DNA from: Longimicrobiales bacterium
GTDB lineage: Bacteria; Gemmatimonadota; Gemmatimonadetes; Longimicrobiales; Gaopeijiaceae
Length of the DNA: 64,000 bases
Direction: 5' to 3'
Assembly (NCBI GenBank): GCA_028278645.1
Contig: JANQDZ010000087.1
Span: 1 to 64,000, forward strand
Shown here: piece after piece, positions 2,242-17,464 of the stretch
Layout: each line of letters begins with the position of its first letter
Position numbering within the stretch: position 1 is the first letter of the stretch
Position numbers and translations under genes: made by a program
The notes under the pieces: generated by a model
What the model saw: only the letters and a program-made list of their open reading frames with translations
The model's database searches: none
What the model was told of the DNA's origin: nothing

Positions 2242-3135
2242 GTGAAGCTCCGAATCGTGTTGGCAGCGACGGTGGCCTTCTCTCTCTCCTGCGGTGGTGG
2301 TGCTGGAGACGCAGAGCGGGTCCTAATTCAAAACAAAGGCTCTGACACCCTGGTGAACGTGGCCCAGGCTTGGGCCGAGGCCTACAGCCTGGTTCACCCC
2401 ACCGTGGCGGTTGCCGTAACAGGCGGCGGATCCGGTACCGGGTTCAGCGCCCTCATCAACGGAACCGTTGACATCGCGAACGCTTCTCGGGCGATCCGGC
2501 AAAGCGAGATCGAGGCGGTCGAAGAAGGCCGCGGTCTCACTCCGTTGGAGTTTGTGGTCGGGTACGATGCGTTAGCCGTCTTCATCCACTCCGACAACCC
2601 CATGGACGCCTTCTCGTTTGCCCAACTGGCCAGCATCTACGCCGAGGGTGGCGCGATCGAAACCTGGTCCGATCTCGGGATTTCCGTTCCCGGCTGTCCC
2701 TCCGATGAGATCATCAGGGTGAGCCGGCAGAACAGCTCCGGGACCTATGCCTTCTTCCAGGAGACCGTTCTCGACGGCGCCCCGTACAAGCTGGGCTCCC
2801 GGGACATGCACGGGTCGAGTGAGGTTGTCGAGTTGGTGGAAAACACCCCCTGCGCCATCGGGTATTCTGGGCTGGCTTACGCCACCGATCACATAAAAAT
2901 GCCCTGCGTGGCGGTGGAAGAAGGTGGGGAATGTGTAGCGCCAAGTATGGAGACTGCGATCAATAGGAGCTATCCTATTGCTCGTCCCCTGCTCATGTAC
3001 ACGGCAGGGGAGCCGGAGGGCGCTACCGGGGAGTACCTGGACTGGATCCTGAGTGACGCCGGACAGTGCATCCTGGTGGAGGGAGGTTATGCCCCCGTCC
3101 GAGGAGATCTCGCCTGCGACATCGCAGACGGGTAA
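2242..3135 (+). CDS. pstS: PstS-family phosphate-binding lipoprotein
   Basis: This 297-residue protein has a lipoprotein signal (FSLSCGGG, Cys at residue 17) and the PstS-type periplasmic binding fold. Visible hallmarks are IQNKGSDTLVNVAQAWAEAY, the glycine-rich GGGSGTGFSALINGTVDIAN phosphate loop, and RVSRQNSSGTYAFFQE. It should capture phosphate in the periplasm and deliver it to the PstCA channel encoded downstream. The start is GTG with GAGGTG five bases before it. It is the first gene of a six-gene operon and is preceded by Pho-box-like repeats. The order pstS-phoU-pstC-pstA-pstB-pstB differs from the usual pstSCAB-phoU. Confidence 0.93.
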   Translation: MKLRIVLAATVAFSLSCGGGAGDAERVLIQNKGSDTLVNVAQAWAEAYSLVHPTVAVAVTGGGSGTGFSALINGTVDIANASRAIRQSEIEAVEEGRGLTPLEFVVGYDALAVFIHSDNPMDAFSFAQLASIYAEGGAIETWSDLGISVPGCPSDEIIRVSRQNSSGTYAFFQETVLDGAPYKLGSRDMHGSSEVVELVENTPCAIGYSGLAYATDHIKMPCVAVEEGGECVAPSMETAINRSYPIARPLLMYTAGEPEGATGEYLDWILSDAGQCILVEGGYAPVRGDLACDIADG

Positions 3136-3190: not shown

Positions 3191-4282
3191 GTGACACACT
3201 ATGAAGAGCGCCTCGAGCGCGATCTGAACGAGATCCGCGCCAAGGTACAGGCTGTTGGGGATCTCATTGAAGAGCAGGTCAGAGACGCCGTCCAGGCCCT
3301 CCTGACCATGGATCCCGACCTAGCCAACCAGGTCATCCTCAAAGACCGCATCGTGAACCGGGAGACCCGGGAAATGGACGGTCTTTGCCACAGGTTCGTC
3401 GTGCGACACCTCCCCGTGGCCGGCCACCTGAGGTACGCTTCGGCCGTTCAACGGGTCTCCGTTGAGTTGGAGCGGGTGGGTGACTACGCCGTGACCATCT
3501 GCCGCCACAGCCTCCGATGCGAGACCCCTCCTCCGGAGAGAATCGCCAAGGACCTTGACCTTCTCGGTCAACAGGCGCGGTTCTCCCTGACGGAAGCACT
3601 TCGGGCTTTTTACGACCAGGACGAAGGCCGAGCGCGAAAAGCTCTGGGGCTCACGGCTCCCCTGGACACTACTCACGACAGCGCCTTCGAAGATCTGGTG
3701 GCGTTGGGTGAGGCGCAGAAGGAGCCGGTGAGGGATGTTTTCGCCTACCTGAGGTCCCTTTATGTGCTCCTTCGGGTATCGGATCAGGCGGAGAACATCG
3801 CCCACGATGCCCTGTTTTCCGCCACCGGGGAGACGAAGAACCCCAAAGTTTACCGGATCCTCTTCGTGGACAGGGCCAACGACTGCCGGAGTCAGCTAGC
3901 AGAGGCCTATTCCCGCCGGGCCTACGGGGAGTCGGCGCAGTTTACCAGCGCCGGATGGGATCCGGCCGACTCCCTCCGCCCGGAGTTGGAACCGTTCCTG
4001 GCAAACCACGGTCTGTCCGTGGAGGACACTCTGCCCAAAAAGGTCCCCGACCTCCTGGCCGAGCCGAAGCACTTTCATGTGGTCATCGGCCTGGATGCGA
4101 TGGCCCTGGATATGATCGGGGAACTCCCCTACAAGACCGTATTCCTGAACTGGGATCTTGGACCCTGCCCCTTCAGCGAGGAAGATCCAGACGCAGAGAA
4201 AACCTTCGAGACGATGTACCGAGTGATCGCAGGGCAGATGAGGGACTTGATGGAGGTTCTCCGGGGTCCCGATGCACCCTAA
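3191..4282 (+). CDS. phoU: PhoU fused to LMW-phosphatase/arsenate-reductase-like domain
   Basis: I choose the GTG at 3191 (363 residues) because GGAGG lies about eight bases upstream; the open frame continues further 5' but overlaps pstS. Residues 1-215 form two PhoU-type helical bundles (YEERLERDLNEIRAKVQAVG, LERVGDYAVTICRHS, VSDQAENIAHDALF). PhoU proteins couple the Pst transporter to the sensor kinase and limit uptake. Residues 220-363 resemble low-molecular-weight tyrosine phosphatase/ArsC enzymes, with ILFVDRANDCRSQLAEAYSR in place of the P-loop. The usual nucleophilic Cys is Asp227 (codon 3869-3871), while the later Cys and Arg of the loop remain. The domain may therefore bind phosphate or a phosphoprotein without catalysis. 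The gene overlaps pstC. Confidence 0.85.
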   Translation: MTHYEERLERDLNEIRAKVQAVGDLIEEQVRDAVQALLTMDPDLANQVILKDRIVNRETREMDGLCHRFVVRHLPVAGHLRYASAVQRVSVELERVGDYAVTICRHSLRCETPPPERIAKDLDLLGQQARFSLTEALRAFYDQDEGRARKALGLTAPLDTTHDSAFEDLVALGEAQKEPVRDVFAYLRSLYVLLRVSDQAENIAHDALFSATGETKNPKVYRILFVDRANDCRSQLAEAYSRRAYGESAQFTSAGWDPADSLRPELEPFLANHGLSVEDTLPKKVPDLLAEPKHFHVVIGLDAMALDMIGELPYKTVFLNWDLGPCPFSEEDPDAEKTFETMYRVIAGQMRDLMEVLRGPDAP

Positions 4283-5240
4283 CCCGGCTTCTCAGCTAGA
4301 CCCTCCCGCCACCCCGGCGGGGCCTACCGCAAGGGCCCGCCATGGGAGCCTTCATCGTCGAGACCTGGCCTGGTATCTGGACAAAGCCGTGGGGATTGTG
4401 GTCTTCGTCGGCGGGGTGTCGGCCATCATTTTCATCCTGGGCATCTTCGCGTTCATCACCAAGGAAGGAATGACCTTCATCTTCGGTGATATGAACCTGA
4501 AGGAGTTCTTCACCAGCCCGAACTGGAGACCCACGGATGCCGTGCCGGAATACGGCGCCCTGGCCCTGATTGTGGGAACGGCTTCCGTGACCGGACTGGC
4601 CATGTTGGTGTCAGTTCCTTTCTCCCTGGGTGCGGCCGTCTTCATTGGGGAATTCGCCACCGGGAAGGTTAGAGAGTCACTGAAGGTGCTGGTGGAGCTG
4701 CTGGCGGCCATTCCCTCGGTCGTCTGGGGGTTCATCGGGTTCATGATCATGAAGGAGCTGATCGAAGATGTGTTTGGGGTCCCGGTGGGGTTGGGGATCC
4801 TGAACGCCGGGATCATTCTGGGCCTCATGGCGGCTCCCATCATGACCACCATCGCCGAGGATGCCCTCAAAGCCGTCCCCGATACCTACCGGGAAGCGGC
4901 CGAAGCCATGGGGGCCACGCGGTGGCAAATAATCCTGAAAGTGGTTTTTCCCGCCGCCAAGAACGGGCTCCTGGGGGCAGTCCTGCTTGGAGTCGGTCGT
5001 GGGTTCGGGGAGACCATGGCTGTCCTCATGGCTAGCGGACACGCCATCCAGCTTCCGGGGAGCATTTTCGACTCGATTCGGGCCCTGACCGCCACAATCG
5101 CTGCGGAGCTGGGGGAAACGGCCGCCGGCTCCCCACACCACGGAGCCCTTTTTACGCTGGGAATCCTCCTGTTCGTCGTAACCTTCATCATCAACCTCTC
5201 CGCGGACCTCATCGTCCGGGGGATCCGGAAGAAGAATTAG
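4272..5240 (+). CDS. pstC: Phosphate ABC transporter permease PstC
   Basis: This 322-residue inner-membrane permease has the BPD_transp_1 fold. A cytoplasmic N-terminal tail of about 35 residues precedes the first helix (AVGIVVFVGGVSAIIFILGI). The EAA loop that docks with the ATPase is YREAAEAMGATRWQIILKVV, and the PstC-typical RGFGETMAVLMASGHA follows. The last helix ends near the C terminus. The start codon lies inside the phoU reading frame (11-base overlap), which suggests coupled translation. With PstA it forms the phosphate channel. The family is firm; the exact start is less so because no good Shine-Dalgarno lies at the usual distance. Confidence 0.93.
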   Translation: MHPNPASQLDPPATPAGPTARARHGSLHRRDLAWYLDKAVGIVVFVGGVSAIIFILGIFAFITKEGMTFIFGDMNLKEFFTSPNWRPTDAVPEYGALALIVGTASVTGLAMLVSVPFSLGAAVFIGEFATGKVRESLKVLVELLAAIPSVVWGFIGFMIMKELIEDVFGVPVGLGILNAGIILGLMAAPIMTTIAEDALKAVPDTYREAAEAMGATRWQIILKVVFPAAKNGLLGAVLLGVGRGFGETMAVLMASGHAIQLPGSIFDSIRALTATIAAELGETAAGSPHHGALFTLGILLFVVTFIINLSADLIVRGIRKKN

Positions 5241-5243
5241 GAG

Positions 5244-6113
5244 ATGTTCGAGGCCACCGCGCTGAACCGGCGAAACGAACGGGTCGAGTGGTTATGGAAA
5301 GTCCTCTTCCTGCTCATGACCCTGATCCTGGTGGTCCCGGTCATCATCATCCTTTCGGTCCTGGTTTATAAAGGCCACGGGGCTATTACGTGGGAGTTTA
5401 TGACGGAGATGGCCCGGTCGGGGGGACGGGAGGGAGGAATCTTCCCTGCGCTGGTGGGAACCATCTGGCTGGTTGGTGTCGCGCTTTTGGCCTCGGTCCC
5501 CCTGGGGGTGGCATCCGCCATCTACCTGAGCGAGTACGCCCCGGACAACTGGTTCACCCGGGTCATCAACCTGGCAATCATCAACCTGGCCGGTGTCCCG
5601 TCCATCGTCCACGCACTTTTCGGGGTTGGTGCTTTCGTCCTCTTCTTCAGGTTCGGGGCCAGCATCCTTGCGGCTTCTCTGACCCTAGCCATCATGACCC
5701 TACCGGTGGTCATCGTTGCCACCCGTGAGTCTCTCCAGGCCGTCCCTCGGGCCTTCCGGGAGGCGTGTTGGAACATGGGGGCCACTCGCTGGCAGACCAT
5801 CAGGCGGGTCGTGCTTCCCAACGCTGTAAGTGGAATCCTCACCGGGGTCATCCTGGAGGTTTCGAGAACAGCCGGGGAAACGGCGCCCATCATGTTCACG
5901 GGAGCCGCCATGTTCATACCGTTCCTTCCCCAGAGCGTGTTCGACCAGACGATGGCTCTGTCGTATCACCTGTTCATCATCTCCAACTCGATTCCAGGCG
6001 TTGCGGAAGAGACTAAATACGGAGTGGCGCTGGTCCTCATTACCCTGGTGCTGGCCATGAACGCCCTATCTATCGCGTTTCGGGTTTACCTACGGGGTAA
6101 GAAGAAGTGGTAA
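5244..6113 (+). CDS. pstA: Phosphate ABC transporter permease PstA
   Basis: This 289-residue inner-membrane partner of PstC begins three bases after the pstC stop. It has about six hydrophobic helices, the PstA signature GGIFPALVGTIWLVGVALLA, and an EAA loop, FREACWNMGATRWQTIRRVV, followed by SRTAGETAPIMFTGAA. The C terminus (RVYLRGKKKW) is typical of PstA. The reading frame overlaps the next ATPase gene by seven bases. Two different ATPase genes follow, so this PstC/PstA pair may contact two non-identical nucleotide-binding subunits. Confidence 0.93.
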   Translation: MFEATALNRRNERVEWLWKVLFLLMTLILVVPVIIILSVLVYKGHGAITWEFMTEMARSGGREGGIFPALVGTIWLVGVALLASVPLGVASAIYLSEYAPDNWFTRVINLAIINLAGVPSIVHALFGVGAFVLFFRFGASILAASLTLAIMTLPVVIVATRESLQAVPRAFREACWNMGATRWQTIRRVVLPNAVSGILTGVILEVSRTAGETAPIMFTGAAMFIPFLPQSVFDQTMALSYHLFIISNSIPGVAEETKYGVALVLITLVLAMNALSIAFRVYLRGKKKW

Positions 6114-6883
6114 ACCCGACGCCGGACCAAGCCATCAAGCTCGAGGTCGATAACCTCACCATCAGCTATGGAACCAATGCGATCCTAAGGGACGTGAGCT
6201 TCCAGGTTCGGGAGCGTGAGATTTTCGGGATCATCGGCCCCGCCAATAGTGGAAAAACCAGCTTTTTGCGAACCCTGAACCGCATGAACGAGTTCGTTCC
6301 AGGGATGCGCGTGGACGGGCAGATCCTGTTTGATGGGCAGGATGTAAGGAACTTCACGAACGTGTTCGCTTTGCGTCGTCGGGTTGGGGTAGTGTTCCCA
6401 CTTCCGGTAGGCCTTCCCATGACGGTGTACGACAACGTTGCCCTGGCTCCCCGATTGACCGGCGTCAAGAAAAAGGCCGATCTGGACGTGATCGTCGAGC
6501 GGTGCCTGACCCGAGCCGCTCTCTGGGACGAGGTGAAAGACCGCCTCCACGCCCTGGGCAGCCTCTTGAGCGGGGGGCAGCAACAACGCCTCACCATCGC
6601 CAGGGCTCTCTCCCAGGATCCGGAGCTCCTCCTCCTGGACGAGTTCTCCATCGCCGTGGATCCGGTCACCACCATGCGGATCGAGGACGTCCTCAAAGAG
6701 CTCCGGTCCGAGATGACCATCGTCATGGTCACCAACCTTGTTCAACAGGCTCGGCGCCTGGCCGAACGGACCGCCTTCTTCCTGAACGGCGAGTTGGTAG
6801 AGGTGGGGGAAACCGAAGAGTTCTTCACCGGAACCGTCCAAGATCCCCGGACGAGGGAATACGTGGAGGGGAAATTTGGATAA
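6107..6883 (+). CDS. PstB-like ATPase, degenerate Q- and H-loops (PstB1)
   Basis: This 258-residue ABC ATPase resembles PstB. It has an A-loop Tyr (TISYG), a Walker A GPANSGKTS, an intact signature LSGGQQQR and a Walker B LLLLDE. Two catalytic positions are altered. The Q-loop reads VGVVFPLPVG, with Pro98 where PstB has Gln, and the switch region reads IVMVTNLVQQ, with Asn210 where the family has His. Such changes normally cripple hydrolysis at the site built on this subunit's Walker A. Its signature, which serves the partner's site, is intact. The start is GTG at 6107, overlapping the pstA stop. The second ATPase is encoded immediately downstream with the opposite defect. Confidence 0.88.
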   Translation: MVNPTPDQAIKLEVDNLTISYGTNAILRDVSFQVREREIFGIIGPANSGKTSFLRTLNRMNEFVPGMRVDGQILFDGQDVRNFTNVFALRRRVGVVFPLPVGLPMTVYDNVALAPRLTGVKKKADLDVIVERCLTRAALWDEVKDRLHALGSLLSGGQQQRLTIARALSQDPELLLLDEFSIAVDPVTTMRIEDVLKELRSEMTIVMVTNLVQQARRLAERTAFFLNGELVEVGETEEFFTGTVQDPRTREYVEGKFG

Positions 6884-7661
6884 CCCCACCGATCGTCACC
6901 CACTTGCCATCGAAACCGAAGGGCTGAACCTCTGGTACGGGGACTTTCAGGCCCTCTTCGACGTGGACCTGGACATCAAACGGGGGATGATCACGTCCCT
7001 CATTGGGCCTTCCGGGTGCGGCAAGACCACTTTCCTCCGGGCCGTAAATCGTATTGTCGAACGGCTAGGGTATGTCCGAACCACTGGGAGCATCGAGGTC
7101 CTGGGTCAGAATATCTACGACCCGAAGGTGGACACGGTCCAACTCCGAAAAGAAGTGGGGATGGTGTTCCAGAGGCCGAACCCCCTTCCCCTCTCGATCC
7201 GGGACAATGTCCTATTCAGTCACCGGATTCATCGGGGCAAGGAGAAGGTCACCAAGGCTCAGGAAGGGGAAATCCTGGAGAAGGCCCTTCGTGAAGTCCT
7301 CCTTTGGGAAACCGTCCGCCATCGGCTGGATGACCGGGCTGTGAACCTCTCTCTGGAGGAGCAACAGAAACTCTGCATCGCCAGGTTGCTTCCGGTGAAG
7401 CCCGAAGTGATCCTGATGGACGAGCCTTGCTCCGCATTGGACCCGGCGGGCACCGAGGCCGTTGAGAACCTCATGTGGGAGCTGAGAGGAGACTACACCA
7501 TTCTCATCGTGACCCACAACATGGCCCAAGCCCGGAGAGCCAGTGAGGAGACGATCTTCATGCTCTTGGGGAAGGTCATCGAGCATCGGGCCACGGAGGA
7601 ATTGTTCCTCACACCAGAGAACAAGGAGACCGCAGACTACATCGAGGGGCGGTACGGGTAG
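6876..7661 (+). CDS. pstB: PstB-like ATPase, degenerate signature motif (PstB2)
   Basis: This 261-residue PstB-type ATPase has an intact A-loop Tyr, Walker A GPSGCGKTT, Q-loop VGMVFQRPNP, Walker B VILMDEP, D-loop SALDP and switch His (IVTHNMAQAR). Its signature motif is NLSLEEQQ (residues 157-164) instead of LSGGQQQ, so both glycines are lost. It starts at a TTG inside the preceding gene, with GGAGGGG about six bases upstream, an 8-base overlap. Paired with the upstream ATPase it would make one complete site (its Walker A/Q/H with the partner's LSGGQ) and one dead site. It closes the pst operon. Confidence 0.9.
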   Translation: MDNPTDRHPLAIETEGLNLWYGDFQALFDVDLDIKRGMITSLIGPSGCGKTTFLRAVNRIVERLGYVRTTGSIEVLGQNIYDPKVDTVQLRKEVGMVFQRPNPLPLSIRDNVLFSHRIHRGKEKVTKAQEGEILEKALREVLLWETVRHRLDDRAVNLSLEEQQKLCIARLLPVKPEVILMDEPCSALDPAGTEAVENLMWELRGDYTILIVTHNMAQARRASEETIFMLLGKVIEHRATEELFLTPENKETADYIEGRYG

Positions 7662-7987: not shown

Positions 7988-9373
7988 TCAGGTGCCGGCT
8001 TTCACGTTACACTGGGAGTGTTGGTAGTTCGGGTTGTTGCCTTCCTCGTCGAAGTCCAGCGGGAACACGATGTCGCTCCCGTGGTCCCCGCCCTTGTGGT
8101 ACGCACCACTTGGATAGAGGTCGGCTTGGTTCACGCCATAGTCCCGGACCAGACGCCGCATGTCACCCAGGCGATGGCCGGTGCCGTAGAGCCAGAACGC
8201 CTTCTCGTAGAAGAGCAGGTCCCGGCGGTCGGCAGCATTCCCCGGATCAACCAGAGGATCCAGCACTGCGTCGGTGTCCAGGTCTGCGCCAGGGAACATC
8301 CCCAGCATCAGGTTCAGCCAATCCGCCCGAAGGTCGTTCAGATACGTGACCATCCCTGCGCCGTCACCGGCAGCCAGGGCAGCCTCGGCCTGGATCAGGC
8401 GAGCCTCCACACCTGTGGCCATCGGCAGCGGGGCGTCGAAAGCGTAGTGCCTCTTCGACTTGTAGAGCTCGAAGTCCTCATCGAACCCGTTGGGCTGAGC
8501 CGGATCCCTATACCAAGGAACCCGGGGGTCCATGGCAGACCGGAACGGAAGCCCGGTCCCACCCTCGACATCAGACACGGAATACCGACCATTCCCCTGG
8601 AGGGAATAGAGGGCGTTCCGATCACCGTTCACGGAGTGGGGGACGTGATACACGTAGCTCGTGGGTACGCCAGCTACGGCAGCACCGGCAGCTGAGTATT
8701 CGCCCTTGCTGAGCAGGGCCCTACCCTTCCCCATGGCCGAGAGATTGGTGTTACCGGCCGCGTCAAACTTGCCGATGGCCATGTCCAAGGACTCGTTGAT
8801 GCTGATGGGGACGCCATAGGTGAAGGATCCGTCGGACTCCAGCTGCGAAAAGGGCAGCGGGCCGCAGTAGCCTTCGGCTAGCGTCAGGATGATATACCCC
8901 TCCAGGGCTTTCAGCTCCTGGAAGTACGGATGGGATGCACCTTCCCACCCTTCGACCCTCTCCGCTCCATCCCTCAGGGCGTGGCGGGCCTGGTGAAGGT
9001 TGATATAAGCACCGTCAGAGAGGTTCCCGTCATCGGGAGTGAACTGATTCCTCCGATCGGTGGCCGTCCGGGTGGCGAACGTCCCGGTGGAAAAGGTCTC
9101 ATCGGTGAAGACCGCCACCGAGGACAGATAGGCGTCGCCGCCACTTCCAGCGTACGCCGTCGTGAACTCGCCAATGGCACCAGCGTAGACCACGTCCATG
9201 AGATCCGGGTTGTCCAGAGTCACAGGCGTGACGTTCTCGCTGTCTACGACCTCGAGGAGCTTGTCGGTATCGCAGCCGGCAATCAGCAGAGCCGTTCCCA
9301 TGGCGCAGATCCCGAACACGTGCCTGAGGCGAAGACCACTACGAATCTTGATAGTCATTTTCATTCGCCTCAT
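7988..9373 (-). CDS. SusD/RagB-family outer-membrane lipoprotein
   Basis: This 461-residue protein has a lipoprotein signal (ALLIAGCDTDK) and then the SusD N-terminal pattern (LLEVVDSENVTPVTLDNPDL). The helical body includes GYIILTLAEGYCGPLPFS and a C-terminal LYGTGHRLGDMRRLVRDYG segment typical of the family. SusD proteins sit on the cell surface as a lid for a SusC channel and bind the nutrient. The first ATG overlaps the susC stop (TGATG); ATGs at 9364 and 9358 are alternatives, and 9364 has GAGG just upstream. No glycosidase gene is adjacent, so the substrate cannot be inferred; it may be a peptide or another non-sugar ligand. Confidence 0.9.
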   Translation of the reverse strand: MRRMKMTIKIRSGLRLRHVFGICAMGTALLIAGCDTDKLLEVVDSENVTPVTLDNPDLMDVVYAGAIGEFTTAYAGSGGDAYLSSVAVFTDETFSTGTFATRTATDRRNQFTPDDGNLSDGAYINLHQARHALRDGAERVEGWEGASHPYFQELKALEGYIILTLAEGYCGPLPFSQLESDGSFTYGVPISINESLDMAIGKFDAAGNTNLSAMGKGRALLSKGEYSAAGAAVAGVPTSYVYHVPHSVNGDRNALYSLQGNGRYSVSDVEGGTGLPFRSAMDPRVPWYRDPAQPNGFDEDFELYKSKRHYAFDAPLPMATGVEARLIQAEAALAAGDGAGMVTYLNDLRADWLNLMLGMFPGADLDTDAVLDPLVDPGNAADRRDLLFYEKAFWLYGTGHRLGDMRRLVRDYGVNQADLYPSGAYHKGGDHGSDIVFPLDFDEEGNNPNYQHSQCNVKAGT

Positions 9374-12300
9374 CAGAAGGAGTAGTCGAGCCGGATCATG
9401 AAGTACCGAACCGGCGGCTGCGTGTTGAACTCGCTCTGGCCGAAGTTGTCGTCCCCACCACCCTCGTTGGCCTCAGGATCGAGACCCGGGTAGTCGGTCC
9501 ACACGGCCAGGTTCCGGCCGGCCAATGTCAGCCGGAGACCGTCCAGGTTCGCCGCCCTGGAGGTGATGAAGGACGGCATGTCGAACGTGACGGACAGTTC
9601 CCTCCACTTGTAAAAGTCGGCGTCGTAGATGTACCCGGCGCCGGACCCCAGGAACCGGTCAGCGATGTAGGCAGCCTGCTTCTCGAGCGAGACTGTGGGA
9701 TCGCCAACGGCGTCACATCCCCGCGTGCTCCGGAAGCCACAGCGGAAGTTCTCTGTGAAGTCGATGCTCTTGTTCCCGCCTCGACCTTCGAAGAGAGTGG
9801 AGATGGAGATCCAGTCGAAGAGCCTGATATCGGCGAAGACCGTCCTGTTCCACTCGGGAAGAGCGACACCCATGAACTCGGCCTCGTCTCCCAGGGTGAC
9901 TTCATCGTTGGTCAGAAGGCCATTCTCATCGGCATCGTTCCAGGAAATCGGCCGCTGGAAAAACGATCCGGCAGAGTAACCTTCTTTATGCCGCTGCTGG
10001 CCGCGGTTGATGACGATGTCGTCCACGCCCTCACCCAACTCCAGCACTTTGTTGCTGAGCGTAGTGTTCGTGAACCCGATATGAATGTCGATGTCCTCAC
10101 GCTGAACGGCCGCAAAATTCACCGCAATCTCCGTCCCCGTGTTTTCAACCTTACCCAGGTTGTCGAACACATCGGTGGTCAGACCAAGGGACCCAGGAAG
10201 CTTCCGCTCAATCAGGGCGTCGCGGGATTCTTTCTTGAAGTACGTGAAGTCGATGCCGAGACGGTCCTGGAAGAGACCCAGGTCGAACCCCGCCTCGATC
10301 TCGGTGGATTTCTCAGGCTCCAGCTGCGTGTTCCCCAGTGCACTCAGGGCAACGCCGGGCTGATCACCATTCTCGGTTGCCACGGTGATGGGTGAATAAA
10401 GGGTCACCGCATCCCTCATGCTCGGGCGCAGGCCCGAGGTCCCGTAGGCGGACCGCAGCCGGAGGCCGCTCAGGAAGTCCATCTCCGGGAACCAGTCTTC
10501 TTCCCCGACTACCCAGGAAAGAGAGGCGGAGGGGTAGTACACAAACCCGAAGTCGTTACCGAAAGCGGAGTTGTCGTCACCCCGGATTCCACCAGCGAGG
10601 AAGACCTTGTCCCGCCAGGCCAGCTCTTGGCGTACATAGCCGCCGACGGTGATGATCTCAAAGTAGTCCTCGTCTACGGTGAAGAGAGCCGAGGTGGTGG
10701 AGCAGGAGGACGTTCCCAGAACCAGTGAGGATCCGTAGCAGCGGGTGGCCTCAACCAGCTCTTTGGTGTACTGGGTGCCCACCGTGGTGGTCGAATACAG
10801 GTCCGGAGTCAGCTCGAAGGTCGCGACACCGGACAGTACCGCCGAGTAGAGGAAGCCGTTCTCCCGCTCAGAGTTCCGGAACCCATTGGCCCAGGACTCG
10901 GCGATGGGCAGGTCGCCCGGCTGAATCGTGGTATGGGCGAAACGGTCCGTGAGGTCGATACCACCGTTGGCTGCCAAGGCCAGCCAGTTGAACGGCCGGT
11001 AGGTGAGGTTGGAGCTCAGGGTCAACCGGTCGATTTCGTCGTAGACGACGTTCTTTTGGATCTCGTACAGGTTAAATCCGAAGCCATAGTTGTTGTCGTT
11101 GGCCACGCCCTCGGGGAACTCGCCCTCCGTGGGGGGCACGTAGTAGCCCTCTCCCAACACCATGTTCAGCACCGGGCTGAAAAGGTTGTTGTCGTTCGGA
11201 TTCAGCCGAACATCCGAGTCGGTGTAACCGAAGGAAATCGAGAGGTCCACGTCCTCGGCGAGGGCCGCGTCCAGGTTCGCGCGAAGGTTGAGTTTGTCCA
11301 GTTTGTTCGTGCTGATCACGCCCTCTTCCTGCTCGAGCTGCCCGGAAACGAAGTACCGAACCTGCTCCGTCCCGCCACGGACGCTTGCGCCATAGCGATT
11401 TCGGAACCCGTTCTGATACATGGTCGTCCGGCCGTCCTTCGCGGTATTAAAGGCCAGGGTCCCGTCCTGGGTGCAGCTACCAGCTGCCGCCAGCCGGTTG
11501 TAGCAGTAGCTGTATCCGTCCGTGTTGAAGTTTCCGCTCGAGGTAAAGAGCGGCTGGGACGCGTCGTCGATCTGATAGGTGAGGTAGTTCATGCGGTAGG
11601 GGGACTCGTCGGAGATCGTCCCGGATTCCGCAAAGAAGGTCCAGTCCGTGGCGCCCGGCCGGCCCCTCTTGGTGGTGATCAGAATGACCCCGTTTGCCGC
11701 AGCCGTCCCGTACAAAGCCGAAGCAGCTGGGCCTTTCACAACCTCAACGCTCTCGATGTCGTTGGGGTTGATGTCATTCAACCGGGAGACGTTTGAACCG
11801 CCCGTGTTCAGGTTCCCGCCGATGTCGGAGCTGATTTGCACACCGTCCAGGTAAATCAGCGGAGAGTTGTCCAGGGAGATGCTGTTGGCTCCGCGGATCC
11901 GGATACGGTCCGAGGTCCCGGTGGTACCAGACATCTCACCCACAACCAACCCCTCGGTACGACCGGAGAGGATCGCAGCAACGTCAGGGATTGGAGCGGG
12001 GTTCAAGGCTTCCACATTGACCTGAGCCGATTTGGAGCCAAGCTCCCGAGCCCGCTGCTGGCGACCGGTGGGAGAGCTCACTACCAAGGCCTCCAACGCG
12101 ATTGCCGTCGGGCTGAGGTTGAAGTCCAGGACGGCGCTCTCACCGGCCGACACCGTGATCGTTTGGGTTTGCTGGGCGAAACCCAGGAGGACGGCGCGGA
12201 TCTCCTGGGTGCCTACCGGGACCCGGTTGATCAAGTACCGCCCCTGGTCGTTGGTGAGTACACCGATGTTGGTGCCCACAACAACCATCTGGGCTTCCGA

Positions 12301-12435
12301 TAGCGGCTGACCTGACGCCGCGTCCACGACCTGTCCCGTGACGGTCCCTGTTTGCTGGGCCGCCAAGCTGGTAAAGCTCAGCCCCACGCAAAGAGCGATC
12401 GCCCCGGGAAGGAGGATCCTACGAGGGAAGTTCAT
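9373..12435 (-). CDS. SusC/RagA-family TonB-linked outer-membrane transporter
   Basis: I choose the ATG at 12435 (1020 residues), which has AGGAGG upstream and begins the signal peptide MNFPRRILLPGAIALCVGLS. An in-frame ATG at 12471 would put extra residues before the signal. Domains in order: a carboxypeptidase-regulatory-like Ig domain (GTVTGQVVDAASGQPLSEAQ, residues 25-110), the TonB plug (LIYLDGVQI, then IESVEVVKGPAASALYG and GVILITTKRG), and a 22-strand barrel ending VRYFMIRLDYSF. It should import a ligand captured by the SusD lipoprotein, powered by TonB-ExbBD. The two genes overlap by one base. Confidence 0.93.
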   Translation of the reverse strand: MNFPRRILLPGAIALCVGLSFTSLAAQQTGTVTGQVVDAASGQPLSEAQMVVVGTNIGVLTNDQGRYLINRVPVGTQEIRAVLLGFAQQTQTITVSAGESAVLDFNLSPTAIALEALVVSSPTGRQQRARELGSKSAQVNVEALNPAPIPDVAAILSGRTEGLVVGEMSGTTGTSDRIRIRGANSISLDNSPLIYLDGVQISSDIGGNLNTGGSNVSRLNDINPNDIESVEVVKGPAASALYGTAAANGVILITTKRGRPGATDWTFFAESGTISDESPYRMNYLTYQIDDASQPLFTSSGNFNTDGYSYCYNRLAAAGSCTQDGTLAFNTAKDGRTTMYQNGFRNRYGASVRGGTEQVRYFVSGQLEQEEGVISTNKLDKLNLRANLDAALAEDVDLSISFGYTDSDVRLNPNDNNLFSPVLNMVLGEGYYVPPTEGEFPEGVANDNNYGFGFNLYEIQKNVVYDEIDRLTLSSNLTYRPFNWLALAANGGIDLTDRFAHTTIQPGDLPIAESWANGFRNSERENGFLYSAVLSGVATFELTPDLYSTTTVGTQYTKELVEATRCYGSSLVLGTSSCSTTSALFTVDEDYFEIITVGGYVRQELAWRDKVFLAGGIRGDDNSAFGNDFGFVYYPSASLSWVVGEEDWFPEMDFLSGLRLRSAYGTSGLRPSMRDAVTLYSPITVATENGDQPGVALSALGNTQLEPEKSTEIEAGFDLGLFQDRLGIDFTYFKKESRDALIERKLPGSLGLTTDVFDNLGKVENTGTEIAVNFAAVQREDIDIHIGFTNTTLSNKVLELGEGVDDIVINRGQQRHKEGYSAGSFFQRPISWNDADENGLLTNDEVTLGDEAEFMGVALPEWNRTVFADIRLFDWISISTLFEGRGGNKSIDFTENFRCGFRSTRGCDAVGDPTVSLEKQAAYIADRFLGSGAGYIYDADFYKWRELSVTFDMPSFITSRAANLDGLRLTLAGRNLAVWTDYPGLDPEANEGGGDDNFGQSEFNTQPPVRYFMIRLDYSF

Positions 12436-12874
12436 GATGCCTCCTTTGGGAATTGAGAAACAACAAGACACCAGGGAATAAATGGTCTAGGGCCCGGTCA
12501 GAGCCCCTACTTTGGGCGTGCCGATTCCCTGGATGGTTACTTATTTTCTTGTCTGTGACCTGAAACCGGTCAGATTTCAGGGTGTCAGGTAATCTGCGAG
12601 CTTGAACCCGACTCCGCAACAAGAAAACACGGGTCTCGTAGATAGGGTTGGTCGAGAGAGATTTGAGACTTCTCAAAAGGGCTCCCGCGAATCCGCGAGG
12701 GACTTTATTGGGGGACTTCCTGATTTGGACGGAGTTATCCGGGAACGCATGAACCAATCTTGAAACTTTTCGAACTTACAGTCGTTCAAAATTGAAAAAT
12801 TGGCAAGAGTTTCGTAAAAACCTATTGTCCGAAAGATCGTGGCCGTGGAGGCTGATCGAACCAGGAGGTGAACC
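12436..12874. other. Divergent promoter region between susC and a plug lipoprotein
   Basis: This stretch of about 440 bases is AT-richer than its surroundings and holds no credible gene. It should contain the leftward susC promoter and the rightward promoter of the small lipoprotein gene. The only clear structure is an inverted repeat at 12559-12581. I could not identify convincing -35/-10 boxes. Confidence 0.5.
12559..12581. repeat. Inverted repeat, possible operator upstream of susC
   Basis: CCTGAAA (12559-12565) and TTTCAGG (12575-12581) form a perfect 7-base dyad with a nine-base spacer. It lies about 125 bases upstream of the susC start in the divergent region. It could be a regulator site or a leader hairpin; no regulator gene is adjacent. 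Confidence 0.35.
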
Positions 12875-13327
12875 GTGGCAAATCAACGATCCCTATTCCC
12901 GAAACCCATTAGGAGAGTTCGGCGGCTCGGATACCGTCCATTTGTTGTCTGCGCGGTCCTGGTCGGGCTCGCAGGATGCGGGGGAACAGCCAGTGATTCG
13001 GGCGCGGGGAGGGAATCAGCGGGTGGTGACCGGAACCTAATTACCCGGGCCGACCTGGAGGGCATGGACGACCTTAACGCCTATGAAGCCATCCGCCGTC
13101 TGAAACCTATATGGCTCAGGTACCGCGGGCAGTCATCCCTCACGGCGGCCGGACGTGAGAGCCTTCGGGTCTACTTGAACAGGACGGCTTTTGGGAACGC
13201 CGAGGCCCTATCAACCCTCATGGTACGGGACATCCGGGAGATGCGGTTTCTCGATGCCCGACAAGCCACGCTCCGGTTCGGGACGGATCACACCGCAGGG
13301 GCCATCGTTGTGATAACGGGAGGGTGA
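12875..13327 (+). CDS. Small lipoprotein with plug-like domain
   Basis: This 150-residue protein starts at a GTG preceded by AGGAGGTGA. It has a long N terminus, a hydrophobic stretch and a lipobox (VLVGLAGCGG). The body includes ADLEGMDDLNAYEAIRRLKP, then a strand-rich end, ATLRFGTDHTAGAIVVITGG. This end resembles the closing strands of TonB-receptor plug domains (AxxxYGxxxxGGVIxITT). No barrel follows. It is probably periplasmic or membrane anchored. The role is unknown; it may interact with TonB-dependent transporters. It is encoded divergently from susC and has a convergent relative next door. Confidence 0.7.
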   Translation: MANQRSLFPKPIRRVRRLGYRPFVVCAVLVGLAGCGGTASDSGAGRESAGGDRNLITRADLEGMDDLNAYEAIRRLKPIWLRYRGQSSLTAAGRESLRVYLNRTAFGNAEALSTLMVRDIREMRFLDARQATLRFGTDHTAGAIVVITGG

Positions 13328-13353
13328 TAGGCCGCCGGTCTTTCCGGGCAGGG

Positions 13354-13809
13354 TCAGTGGGCAGTGGTCTTCACGATGATCACACCATTCCCACCCGTAC
13401 TTCCGAACCGAAGAACGGCCTCTCTACCGGACAGGATCTGGATGAATTCCACGCTCTTCGCAGGGATATTCTCCAGCGCCTCCGGCCCGTCGCTAACCAG
13501 GGCGCCATCGATTACCACCCGCACGTCACCTTGCAAGGCGATGCTGTCTCTCCCTCGGTGGGTAATCCGAACCGGACTCCCTTCCCGTTGCCGTTGAATC
13601 AATAGGTGGGTGGTTCCCCTTTCCACGACTTCCAGGGCCGTACGGACTCTCATCTCTTCAATTCGGTCCCGGAAGATCACCGTACCACCCGGCTCCAGGC
13701 CGTCGGGGCGAGGACCGGCTTTCGCAGTGGCACAACTCTCGAGCCCCATGGCAAGGACGGGGAGTAGCAGAAGGATCGCGGGCCGTCGGCCATTTCTTTT
13801 GGGGCGCAT
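13354..13809 (-). CDS. Small lipoprotein with plug-like domain
   Basis: This 151-residue protein has a signal with a putative lipobox (MGLESCATA, Cys at about residue 26). Its last third, EFIQILSGREAVLRFGSTGG followed by NGVIIVKTT, again looks like the end of a TonB plug domain without a barrel. It faces the previous plug-like lipoprotein tail to tail, 26 bases apart, and the two share the ATLRFG/AVLRFG pattern. They may be diverged paralogues. The reading frame is clean and the lipoprotein features are convincing, but the function is unknown. Confidence 0.65.
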   Translation of the reverse strand: MRPKRNGRRPAILLLLPVLAMGLESCATAKAGPRPDGLEPGGTVIFRDRIEEMRVRTALEVVERGTTHLLIQRQREGSPVRITHRGRDSIALQGDVRVVIDGALVSDGPEALENIPAKSVEFIQILSGREAVLRFGSTGGNGVIIVKTTAH

Positions 13810-13973
13810 AAAACCTCACAGCTTCTTTGGGAGATGCCTCATCTATTCAAGGGTACGCAGAAGTGGACCTGAAGATTACTATACTCTCCCCTCGACCGGA
13901 TCCCAAGGAACTCCCGGCGGACAAGCTCATTGAAGGCCAGGAGGACACGCTCAAGCCTGTGGGAGAAGTCCGA

Positions 13974-15920
13974 TCAACGCCTCAATAGAGTCCGATAGCT
14001 CCCGGCGTGGTGGACGGCGAATCCGGCGAAGGAAGGGTAAAAGCCAAATTCCTCAGCTGTGGCCCTCATGACTTCTTCCAGCATCTCCGGGCTCTGGCCG
14101 GCGAAGCTGAGCTTCTCCCCTGGTACCTCTACGGTTCGGGTCGTCGACCACCATCTGACCCCCTCCGGACCGAGGCGCTTTTCTTCCATCCAGGATTCAA
14201 TCGCCTCCCGGAAGGCCGACGGTGAGCCCGTATCCCGGATCAGGATGACCTGGATGGAGTCTCGAGCCGGGGCCGCCAATACGACTGGAGTAGCGGTTGG
14301 GGCGGAGGGAATCCCAACCTCGGGTTCCCCGCCGAACTCGAAGAGGACCTCGTCGGGGAGGGGACCGGTCTCGAGGCCGATGAGCACCGGTTTCCCCTGC
14401 CGAGAAGCGTACTGGAGCTCCCCGGTTCCGTGCCGAACCGTTCCGTCTGCCCCGTGGGCTACAGTCCGATAATCCATGATGGCGACCTCGTCCACGAGGT
14501 CGATCACGTGTTCACTGAGGACTTTGGTTTCCCCATTGAAGGTCGCCGTGACCTGCTGGTGCCTGTCGTCAGAGACGACGTCGTACCAGAACGGGATGTC
14601 GGCCCCGAAGACAAGCCCCGATTCGTGGGCGCTCTGCACGGACGCTTCGATCAGATTGAGGAAGTGACCCAGAAGGGCCTCTCGGCCAGGGCCGTGAAAG
14701 GCCGGGAGCAGGTATGGCTCGATGTCATATCGGACCCCGAAGAAGCGCTCCGTCGGGAGAACCGCCGAGTTGTACTCAGCCACATGGCCGATGGTACTCA
14801 GGACACCGGTGTGGTATTCGGGCAAGGCATACCGCGGGTACCCGTCCAGGGCGAAAACCCGGATGCCCTTGGCGTTTAAACCCGAAACCAGAGGCCGCAT
14901 GGTCTCAACGTCGATGGCCAGTTCCCCCAGGAGGCCGCCCCGACCCTGGTCTCCTGGGAGCTGAAGGAAAACCCTGTTGAAGCCTTCCTCCTCGAGAAAC
15001 TCGAGAAGCGGAGGGATCAGGTCCGGATTCTCCAGAAACTCCCCGGTATCCCAAAACCAGGTGGCCTTTTGTCGGGAAACCGGGGCGGCGGCAGCCCGGA
15101 TTGGTGGCGGCAGCTCAGGAAGTCCGCCAGTTTCTATAGAGAACCCCATGGGCCCCAGTTCCACCTTCGAGATGCCTTCATCCCCTGCCTCGAACACCAC
15201 CAGAGCCAAGGCATCGCGGCGAACCTCCACCGGGAACCGATCCATAGGGATGATTGCCTGTTGCCACCCTGGTTCCAGGCGGCCAGATGGAAGGAAAGAA
15301 GCAACCTCTCCAATCACCACTGCGTCCTCCCGTGCCTCCCAGGAAGGGTCGGCAACCTTTAGCAGAATCCGCTCCCCACCCTCCCCACCCCGAACCCAGA
15401 AGCTGAGCGTCGTGAAGGCACGGGTATCGAGGTAGCTTCGCGCCTCCTTCGGGAGTTCCGCGTCGTAGGTCTGGATCCAGAGCCCTGAGAACCCTCCGGA
15501 CTGCTGTGTAAACTCCATTTCGAGGGCTCGCCGCCCGTCGGAGCCCCGACGAACGTAGGCTCGTGCCAAAGACGGCGATCTCTGGAAGGTGCCGAAAAAA
15601 CCTCCCAAGCCCGTCCGGTTCGCCTGAGAGAAGTCGGCTACAATGAGGGTGTTGCCGGAAAACGCCGGTGTGTGGCCGACAGGAACCGTCGAGGCCTGGA
15701 CCGCAGGGACCTCTGAGATCCGCCTCACTTCCAACCGAGGACCCTCGGGAAGGTCCACCGTCGCGAGGCGGCCGAATCGGACGCCTTCTGGGCCCTGGAT
15801 GCCCCAATCAAGCCCTGAGACAGCCGTGGTCAGAGCCGGCCGGACCTGGTCCTGGCCATGGGACGGACGGACTACGGAAGACGCTGCAAGCAGCGCCAGA
15901 ACCAGCGTCCTTCGAGTCAC
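13974..15920 (-). CDS. Secreted protein with N-terminal beta domain and TIM-barrel-like domain
   Basis: I choose the GTG at 15920 (648 residues). It gives a signal peptide, TRRTLVLALLAASSVVRPSHG, and overlaps the preceding stop in a GTGA, implying coupled translation. The open frame extends further 5', but only inside the upstream gene. Residues 60-270 look like a beta-sandwich, possibly ligand binding (LEMEFTQQSGGFSGLWIQTY). Residues 290-530 look like a TIM barrel (RVFLQLPGDQGRGG, KGIRVFALDGYPRY, FFGVRYDIEPYLLP, VDEVAIMDYRT), with an acidic DIEP strand end as in glycoside hydrolases. I do not recognise the exact family. A secreted or periplasmic glycosidase-like role is an inference. Confidence 0.7.
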   Translation of the reverse strand: MTRRTLVLALLAASSVVRPSHGQDQVRPALTTAVSGLDWGIQGPEGVRFGRLATVDLPEGPRLEVRRISEVPAVQASTVPVGHTPAFSGNTLIVADFSQANRTGLGGFFGTFQRSPSLARAYVRRGSDGRRALEMEFTQQSGGFSGLWIQTYDAELPKEARSYLDTRAFTTLSFWVRGGEGGERILLKVADPSWEAREDAVVIGEVASFLPSGRLEPGWQQAIIPMDRFPVEVRRDALALVVFEAGDEGISKVELGPMGFSIETGGLPELPPPIRAAAAPVSRQKATWFWDTGEFLENPDLIPPLLEFLEEEGFNRVFLQLPGDQGRGGLLGELAIDVETMRPLVSGLNAKGIRVFALDGYPRYALPEYHTGVLSTIGHVAEYNSAVLPTERFFGVRYDIEPYLLPAFHGPGREALLGHFLNLIEASVQSAHESGLVFGADIPFWYDVVSDDRHQQVTATFNGETKVLSEHVIDLVDEVAIMDYRTVAHGADGTVRHGTGELQYASRQGKPVLIGLETGPLPDEVLFEFGGEPEVGIPSAPTATPVVLAAPARDSIQVILIRDTGSPSAFREAIESWMEEKRLGPEGVRWWSTTRTVEVPGEKLSFAGQSPEMLEEVMRATAEEFGFYPSFAGFAVHHAGSYRTLLRR

Positions 15921-17464
15921 CGCCGACTCTGGATCATTTCCGAAGCAGCTTCGGTCACGGCTTTGACATCGAACGATCCCCCGTATACGAACTCGGAACC
16001 CTCGCTCGTCCCATAGAATACCATGGGCGGGAACCGGGCGGAGAGAGACGTCTCCGGGGACTCGGGGGTCCAGGCAAGAATCCCCTCCATGAAGCGGCCC
16101 AGGTCGATCAGCCCGAACATCAGGAGTTCGTCGGGACAATAGTCGAGATGGTCCCGAAGCCCATCCGGCAAAGTGCCGGGTTCGCGGGAAATGAGGGTCC
16201 CGAGGGCTTCCATCCCCGCATCCTCCCCGCCCGAAGCGACCATCGTGAAGACCTCTTCTTCTCCCCAACCGTAGTAAACCTCCATCCGCTCCAAGGGGAA
16301 AGGTGTTTCCTCGTCTTCCGGGACCTGGAAGTCCTGCACCAGCACATCGACCTCAACTCCCTCGATCTCGCCGACATGCTGACGGTACTCGAAGGTCACT
16401 CCCGGGACCTCCAACTCGAGCCCGCCCATCTGGTCCCGAACCAGCTCTTTGTACTCCGAGACTTCCATATCAGGGAGAGAGTAGACGCCCTCCATCTCCA
16501 TCCCGTTCTCCGTGAACTCCATGCTCATGACACCCTCAATCTCGCGACCCGCCAGGCTGAACATGACTTCGGGATCGATCCCTTTCATGAGCCCGGACAT
16601 GGCTTCGAAGAAAGGCTGAAGGAGCTCCTTACTTGCGCCCAAGTTGTGATTCATCCAGAAAACCATGGGTCGATCCAGGTCGACGCGGCCGAGTCCGAAG
16701 GGCACCTCCGGCTCCTGGTCGGATACCAATGTGCCCCACTGTGTCCCCCTCTTCAGGCCCCACCTGGCGGTCCAGTCCAAACGGCCCGCATCAAGATTGA
16801 AAGAAACCCCCAGGGCTTCGGACTGCTCCAGAATTCCGAACATCAGATCGGATTGGGCTTCCATCAGGTCCCCGAAGGACGCCGGATCGAAGCCCGGCGT
16901 CGGGGTGCCCGGGACTGCTTCAAGCCCAGCTCCCATGTTCTCCTGGAGAGAATCTCGGGCGGCCTGGATTTCGTCGGCATAGGCCACCTGGAGGCCTTCC
17001 AAGTCCGCATGGATTTCCAGGTCCCCAGAGAACCCCTGGAAAATCGAGTTACCTCCCAACTCTGGGAGATCTCCCTTTACCAAGAGGACGTAGTCGTCCT
17101 GAAAAGCCGTCGTGAAACCGCTCTGGCTCTCCCCCAAAAGGGCCTCAAAGGCCTCCCTGTCGTTGAGAGGGAGGAGCAGTGCGGGGCTTTCCGTATTCTC
17201 GAGGTCCTCCACCCAGGCCAGATACCAGGGTCTTTCGGTATCGAGCCCCTCTGAGGAGAGCACTCCGAGAAAAGCCAACATGCTGGTAACCGGCGGGGCC
17301 CCCATTTCGCCGAGCTTCCGGTCCAGATCACTCGGGTTGGCGATCTGGACCACCGCCAGGCTCTTTGCTGGGAGAAGGTCGGCTGGGGGTCCACCCCCAA
17401 AGCCGAGATAATCCGAACATCCTATGAGGTTAAAAAGGAGGGCAGCGGTCAGGATCCTCTTCAT
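15917..17464 (-). CDS. Lipoprotein of unknown function (DUF3352-like)
   Basis: This protein of about 515 residues starts at the ATG at 17464, with AAGGAG seven bases upstream. Its lipoprotein signal is KRILTAALLFNLIGCSDYLG. The body is acidic, with recurrent strand-helix units, and begins PADLLPAKSLAVVQIANPSD, which recalls DUF3352-type surface proteins that open with a P..(V)..xxV....P pattern. I cannot confirm this without a profile search. The stop overlaps the start of the secreted TIM-barrel-like gene, so the two products are probably made together and may work on the same substrate outside the inner membrane. Confidence 0.7.
   Translation of the reverse strand: MKRILTAALLFNLIGCSDYLGFGGGPPADLLPAKSLAVVQIANPSDLDRKLGEMGAPPVTSMLAFLGVLSSEGLDTERPWYLAWVEDLENTESPALLLPLNDREAFEALLGESQSGFTTAFQDDYVLLVKGDLPELGGNSIFQGFSGDLEIHADLEGLQVAYADEIQAARDSLQENMGAGLEAVPGTPTPGFDPASFGDLMEAQSDLMFGILEQSEALGVSFNLDAGRLDWTARWGLKRGTQWGTLVSDQEPEVPFGLGRVDLDRPMVFWMNHNLGASKELLQPFFEAMSGLMKGIDPEVMFSLAGREIEGVMSMEFTENGMEMEGVYSLPDMEVSEYKELVRDQMGGLELEVPGVTFEYRQHVGEIEGVEVDVLVQDFQVPEDEETPFPLERMEVYYGWGEEEVFTMVASGGEDAGMEALGTLISREPGTLPDGLRDHLDYCPDELLMFGLIDLGRFMEGILAWTPESPETSLSARFPPMVFYGTSEGSEFVYGGSFDVKAVTEAASEMIQSRR

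Follow-up and report, generated by a model that had tools for sequence, protein, structure and literature searches.

There is as yet no settled account of how the Pst transporter signals phosphate to the cell; one model holds that PhoU and PhoR sense the conformational state of PstSCAB (PMC5775613). In E. coli, two mutants of the transporter ATPase PstB, Q160K in the signature and E179Q in Walker B, have opposite effects on Pho signaling; the former is predicted to be locked open, which gives phosphate sufficiency, and the latter to be locked closed, which gives starvation, and physical PstB-PhoU-PhoR interactions in this organism are cited in the same work (PMC5775613). Three clades of PhoU-like regulators, linked to Pst, Pit and NptA, are described in a survey from 2026 (PMC13170248). 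The ATP sites of ABC transporters are each formed by the Walker motifs of one subunit and the signature of the other, and in the transporter Pdr5 the signature of NBD2 is LNVEQ (PMC7756269). Degenerate ATP sites also occur in the importers RbsA and NupO (PMC11466899). Finally, E. faecalis possesses two Pst ATPases, PstB1 and PstB2, whose functions are non-equivalent (PMC12096839).

Here, we describe a pst operon from a Longimicrobiales bacterium that encodes a PhoU protein fused to an ArsC/LMW phosphatase-like domain, together with two dissimilar PstB proteins. The window, meaning the whole stretch of DNA that was analysed, comprises 64,000 nucleotides, and the features of the operon are collected in Table 1. 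The original prediction, made from the DNA letters, described PhoU followed by an LMW phosphatase/ArsC-like domain and encoded between pstS and pstC. Pfam, NCBIfam and Foldseek agree with this architecture, the position of the gene and its residues Asp227, Cys232 and Arg233 are all correct for the window protein, and the placement between pstS and pstC is conserved in relatives.

Table 1. Features of the pst operon and of the fusion protein in the window.
Feature	Coordinates	Strand	Basis or remark
pstS, phosphate-binding protein	2242..3135	+	TIGR02136 211.1 bits, cut-off 206.6
phoU-LMWPc fusion gene	3191..4282	+	363 aa; GTG start at 3191, stop ends at 4282
PhoU part, residues 1-214	3191..3832	+	two PhoU repeats; PF01895, Foldseek
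ERVGD, residues 94-98, metal-type ExxxD motif of repeat 1	3470..3484	+	
LRVSDQ, residues 194-199, degenerate second ExxxD motif	3770..3787	+	
ArsC/LMW-PTP-like domain, about residues 222-353	3854..4249	+	PF01451, PDB profile, Foldseek
Former phosphate loop DRANDCRS, residues 227-234	3869..3892	+	Asp227 at the position of the catalytic Cys
pstC permease	4272..5240	+	TIGR02138 269.8 bits, above cut-off
pstA permease	5244..6113	+	TIGR00974 263.1 bits, above cut-off
pstB1 ATPase	6107..6883	+	TIGR00972 295.3 bits, below cut-off 343.2
pstB2 ATPase	6876..7661	+	TIGR00972 318.4 bits, below cut-off 343.2

The fusion ORF matches PhoU in two stretches (Pfam PF01895, 2.2e-27) and LMWPc in its C-terminal part (PF01451, 5.2e-8, above the Pfam cut-off), and NCBIfam and Pfam together read it as PhoU followed by LMWPc/arsenate reductase. 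Its score against the NCBIfam PhoU model TIGR02135 is 119.1 bits, below the curated cut-off of 130.25. Profile matches of the C-terminal domain in the PDB are the arsenate reductases 3t38 (2e-9) and 2l17 (7e-9). An AlphaFold model of the full-length fusion, built with 60 relatives, has a mean pLDDT of 92.7 and a pTM of 0.79; in Foldseek, its N-terminal part aligns with the PhoU structure 4q25 from P. aeruginosa at a target TM of 0.94, and its C-terminal part with the arsenate reductase and LMW phosphatase structures 8p5n, 1jf8 and 1ljl, with target TM values to ArsC structures of about 0.77-0.84.

A search of genome contigs with the single protein returned no relatives, and an alignment-based search returned 173, of which 80 were kept; these belong to at least four phyla (Gemmatimonadota, Acidobacteriota, Planctomycetota and Pseudomonadota). 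Whole-genome searches supplied further fusions, and removal of sequences more than 90% identical left 102 full-length, non-redundant fusions. Single fusion records are labelled Myxococcota, Bacteroidota and Rhodothermota, and no full-length fusion was found in plasmid records. Full-length fusions are well separated from plain PhoU (the weakest fusion at about 1e-99, the best plain PhoU at about 1e-41), and the sole match between the two score ranges (G127) is truncated at the end of its contig. A series of truncated fusion forms was absent from these searches.

Within the operon, the start of pstC overlaps the end of the fusion gene by 11 bases, and the order pstS-fusion-pstC-pstA-pstB1-pstB2 is kept across phyla in nearly all relatives with enough flanking sequence. 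In the window, pstS is immediately preceded by a sulfotransferase-family ORF (PF03567, 1414-2085), to which the loci of the relatives gave no match with the threshold that was applied. On the minus strand, a gene for a TonB receptor of SusC/RagA type (9373-12471) is convergent with the pst operon and is adjoined by an ORF of 461 amino acids without a Pfam match (7988-9373, also on the minus strand). Among the relatives, one fusion operon is immediately preceded by an ORF matching phosphate-selective porin O/P (L103, 4194-6800), and just upstream of another lie genes for a histidine kinase with a PAS domain and a regulator of OmpR type, a candidate PhoR/PhoB pair (Thermoanaerobaculia, L055, 5065-6869). 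In a planctomycete (L087), a second PhoU/PstB/PstA-like set lies in opposite orientation just downstream of the fusion operon, at about 12500-16000. An apparent fusion without PstB in a tubeworm endosymbiont (L065) was set aside as a decayed or misassembled operon, since its pstA is truncated and its pstC is broken in frame.

The two parts of the fusion protein differ in their conservation, with mean pairwise identities of 47% for the PhoU part and about 38% for the C-terminal domain. When the PhoU part was inspected for two ExxxD metal-type motifs, the first proved to be kept, with E94, R95, G97 and D98 invariant in all 102 fusions, and the second proved to be degenerate, with Glu at position 194 in 46 and Asp at position 198 in 47 of them. 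Despite this degeneracy, R195 and N202 are invariant.

In the C-terminal domain of the window protein, the former phosphate loop reads ILFV-D227-R-A-N-D-C232-R233-S. Alignment across genomes places Asp at the position of the catalytic Cys in 88 of the 102 fusions, Gly in 13 and Ala in 1; Cys is found in none of them, and no relative that keeps it was encountered. The Asp-for-Cys replacement is therefore neither chance nor a sequencing error, and the original view that it marks a non-catalytic domain is upheld. Three other LMWPc proteins are encoded in the window's genome, each with an intact Cx5R loop, and thus the loss is confined to the fusion. Just 5 of the 102 fusions keep the Cx5R Arg, which is replaced by Ala, Leu, Val, Pro, Trp or another residue in the other 97. 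Cys232 and Arg233, which had been described as remaining in the loop, do so together in the window protein, its nearest relative and one further sequence (3/102); the observation holds for the window protein and fails for the family, where position 232 is Gly or another residue instead of Cys in 79 sequences, and we reject the two residues as a family-wide functional pair. In STYX-type pseudophosphatases the catalytic Cys is replaced, by Gly in some members, and the phosphate-binding Arg is kept; the rarity of the Arg sets the fusions apart from that pattern.

Most other positions of the loop (228, 229, 231, 232 and 233) are variable, and Asn230 (85/102) and Ser234 (86/102) are usually retained. 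Arg occupies position 232 in 9 of the 13 sequences with Gly227 versus 4 of the 88 with Asp227, a pairing that is present on at least two branches of the tree. As a candidate for the general-acid Asp-Pro motif of LMW-PTP/ArsC enzymes, a DP dipeptide is found at residues 332-333 of the window protein, and just 20 of the 102 fusions have DP within 30 residues of W321. The invariant residues of the domain are F225, A237, P313, W321 and L353, and the residues that are kept (Asn230, Ser234, Ala237, the SAG motif at 253-255, Pro313 and Trp321) are of structural type. As judged from these alignments, the C-terminal domain is a conserved non-catalytic module that has lost the canonical oxyanion pocket, and the absence of Cys from all 102 fusions leads us to reject a phosphatase or arsenate reductase function.

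The transporter encoded beside the fusion is itself unusual. In the window, PstB1 keeps the signature LSGGQ and has a D-loop reading SIAVD, with the Q-loop Gln replaced by Pro (VFPLP) and the H-loop His by Asn (VTN). PstB2 keeps Walker A and B, the Q-loop and the H-loop, with LSLEE in place of LSGGQ, and the Walker B Glu is present in both proteins. The complementary loss of motifs in two nucleotide-binding domains that characterizes degenerate-site ABC transporters was found in 63 of 63 aligned pairs: every PstB1 combines LSGGQ with VFPLP and with Asn in place of the H-loop His, and every PstB2 combines a degenerate LxLEx signature with VFQRP and VTH. A broader, simpler motif scan recovered the pair at about 77 of the 79 fusion loci whose downstream sequence was long enough. 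From the tandem genes and their complementary motifs we infer that PstB1 and PstB2 heterodimerize. Because an ATP site spans two subunits, such a heterodimer would contain one competent site, composed of the Walker motifs, Q-loop and H-loop of PstB2 and the LSGGQ of PstB1, and one degenerate site, composed of the Walker motifs of PstB1 and the LSLEE of PstB2. The tandem genes with their complementary motif loss are possibly more notable than the fusion.

The PstB2-type signature was tracked by a DNA pattern in genomes with and without the fusion. Within the order, it was detected in 45 of 46 fusion genomes versus 12 of 108 others, the single fusion genome that lacks it being explained by a contig end; in Planctomycetota, it was detected in 23 of 24 fusion genomes versus 14 of 368 others, and several of these 14 carry sequences such as LPLEFQQKL that probably belong to other proteins. 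The corresponding Fisher values of about 1e-26 overstate independence, since the genomes counted are related. The association is looser in the reverse direction. Operons of the form pstS-pstC-pstA-pstB1-pstB2, with no fusion gene, are present in genus g12 and G024 (loci L201-L206) as well as in G081 (L207), and an obligate partnership of fusion and asymmetric transporter was rejected in this direction. Transport hence does not depend on the fusion. No PhoU domain was detected by search in five g12 genomes that are 93-99% complete, and the occurrence of the transporter in this genus makes the fusion look like a regulator rather than a transport subunit; its place beside the transporter is an accessory one, which is what a regulator would be expected to have. 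How phosphate signaling works with the g12 operons is a question that these genomes raise. In the three genomes tested for other PhoU genes (G007, G026 and G016), the fusion was the only PhoU found. The window's genome has two others, one beside a Na/Pi cotransporter and one in a frame of 568 residues, and no Pst genes were found near either.

We propose that the fusion protein is probably a non-enzymatic PhoU regulator equipped with a docking or positioning domain and acting on a Pst importer with an asymmetric PstB1/PstB2 pair. By analogy with E. coli, the fusion would bind the PstB1-PstB2 pair, and its PhoU part, like known PhoU proteins, may contact the transporter ATPases and either report the state of transport or throttle uptake. 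The dead domain would tune this PhoU-ATPase contact as a protein-docking or positioning module, and might help to recognize the asymmetric PstB pair or a downstream partner. Such a module, and not a phosphatase, an arsenate reductase or a phosphate sensor, is the most likely identity of the domain; the case is one of elimination, since its conserved positions are mostly structural.

The leading alternative is that the domain senses phosphate or arsenate, its former phosphate loop binding an oxyanion and informing PhoU of how much phosphate the cell contains. The domain has the fold of enzymes that bind oxyanions, Asn230 and Ser234 are retained, and the recurrent GxxNxRxS loop of the Gly227 sequences could hold an anion, so that some members (the nine with both Gly227 and Arg232) might do so in a rearranged loop. 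In the family at large, however, the catalytic Cys is gone from every member and the Arg from nearly all, Asp brings a negative charge to the site, and the loop residues around it vary. These changes make a phosphate sensor unlikely and speak against the original suggestion that the loop survives as a site for phosphate-like oxyanions. The loss of the Arg also weighs on the idea that the domain recognizes a phosphorylated partner in the manner of STYX, such as a Pho-pathway protein phosphorylated on histidine or aspartate, since it is unlike what recognition of a phosphate group needs. Pseudophosphatases that modulate phospho-signaling are an established type (PMC2175518), and the Thermoanaerobaculia operon does have genes for a histidine kinase and a regulator of OmpR type nearby, but this pair was seen in just one of the few neighborhoods scanned, and we regard a phospho-partner as distinctly improbable.

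If the domain is instead a passive remnant that merely stabilizes or dimerizes PhoU and has no specific role, its structural-looking conserved residues and its faster evolution relative to the PhoU part would be accounted for. It is nevertheless kept in full-length members across several phyla, and the fusions stand apart from plain PhoU with no truncated series between them, which leaves this explanation with very little probability. Least credible of all is some other, unrecognized chemistry, catalytic or metal-binding, in which Asp227 takes part. That residue is found in 86% and Asn230 in 83% of members, but Asp gives way to Gly in 13 of the 102 fusions on several branches, and the invariant residues of the domain (F, A, P, W and L) include no polar set. 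The docking or positioning role remains the reading that we prefer. A bolder extension of it is that PstB1 and PstB2 pair obligately, with one of the two ATP sites dead, and that this heterodimer serves as a two-state reporter, the PhoU core and the pseudo-enzyme each reading a different PstB and phosphate being signaled via the degenerate site. We consider this extension speculative and rather unlikely; if true, it would be a new way for a Pst transporter to report phosphate.

The fixation across phyla of one signature-altered and one intact ATPase resembles what the PstSCAB-conformation model probes by mutation, and the split of motifs lets the roles of the two ATP sites be separated in one natural system. 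The dead enzyme domain on PhoU offers a loss that is open to testing. The analysis also corrects annotation, as simple matching would name these genes PhoU, phosphatase or arsenate reductase, and PstB, and it indicates that the arrangement of the phosphate pump in many little-studied bacteria differs from that of E. coli.

No paper on a PhoU-LMWPc fusion or an asymmetric PstB pair was found among open-licence papers, and term searches within the PhoU-like regulator survey gave no fusion (PMC13170248). Like classical PhoU (E. coli; P. aeruginosa 4q25), the fusion has two PhoU repeats, the same fold, a link to the pst operon and, invariantly, the first ExxxD motif. It differs from classical PhoU in its additional ArsC-like domain, in its degenerate second ExxxD motif and in gene position, the classical gene following pstB. 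With ArsC and LMW-PTP the additional domain shares the fold, the Asn, Ser and Ala of the loop region and the SAG motif, but never the catalytic Cys and rarely the Arg. STYX-type pseudophosphatases also combine a phosphatase fold with a replaced Cys; they belong to a different phosphatase family, and the fusion domain is without the loop Arg as well. The E. faecalis pair, a Firmicutes tandem, is likewise encoded by adjacent pstB genes within one pst operon (PMC12096839); both of its members keep all these motifs, whereas the two copies in the present operon lack different ones, so the two arrangements are different. TmrAB, ABCB2/B3, Pdr5 and RbsA/NupO (PMC7756269, PMC11466899) have one degenerate ATP site, and in them the loss is also complementary, one NBD lacking the signature and the other the remaining motifs; the LNVEQ of Pdr5 NBD2 resembles the LSLEE of PstB2. 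The degenerate-site transporters covered in these papers are mainly exporters or type II importers with fused NBDs, unlike the present system, which imports phosphate as a Pst transporter, has its NBDs encoded by separate genes and keeps the Walker B Glu in both. Thus, the parts of this system are already known, and their combination is a new variant within the Pst-PhoU systems.
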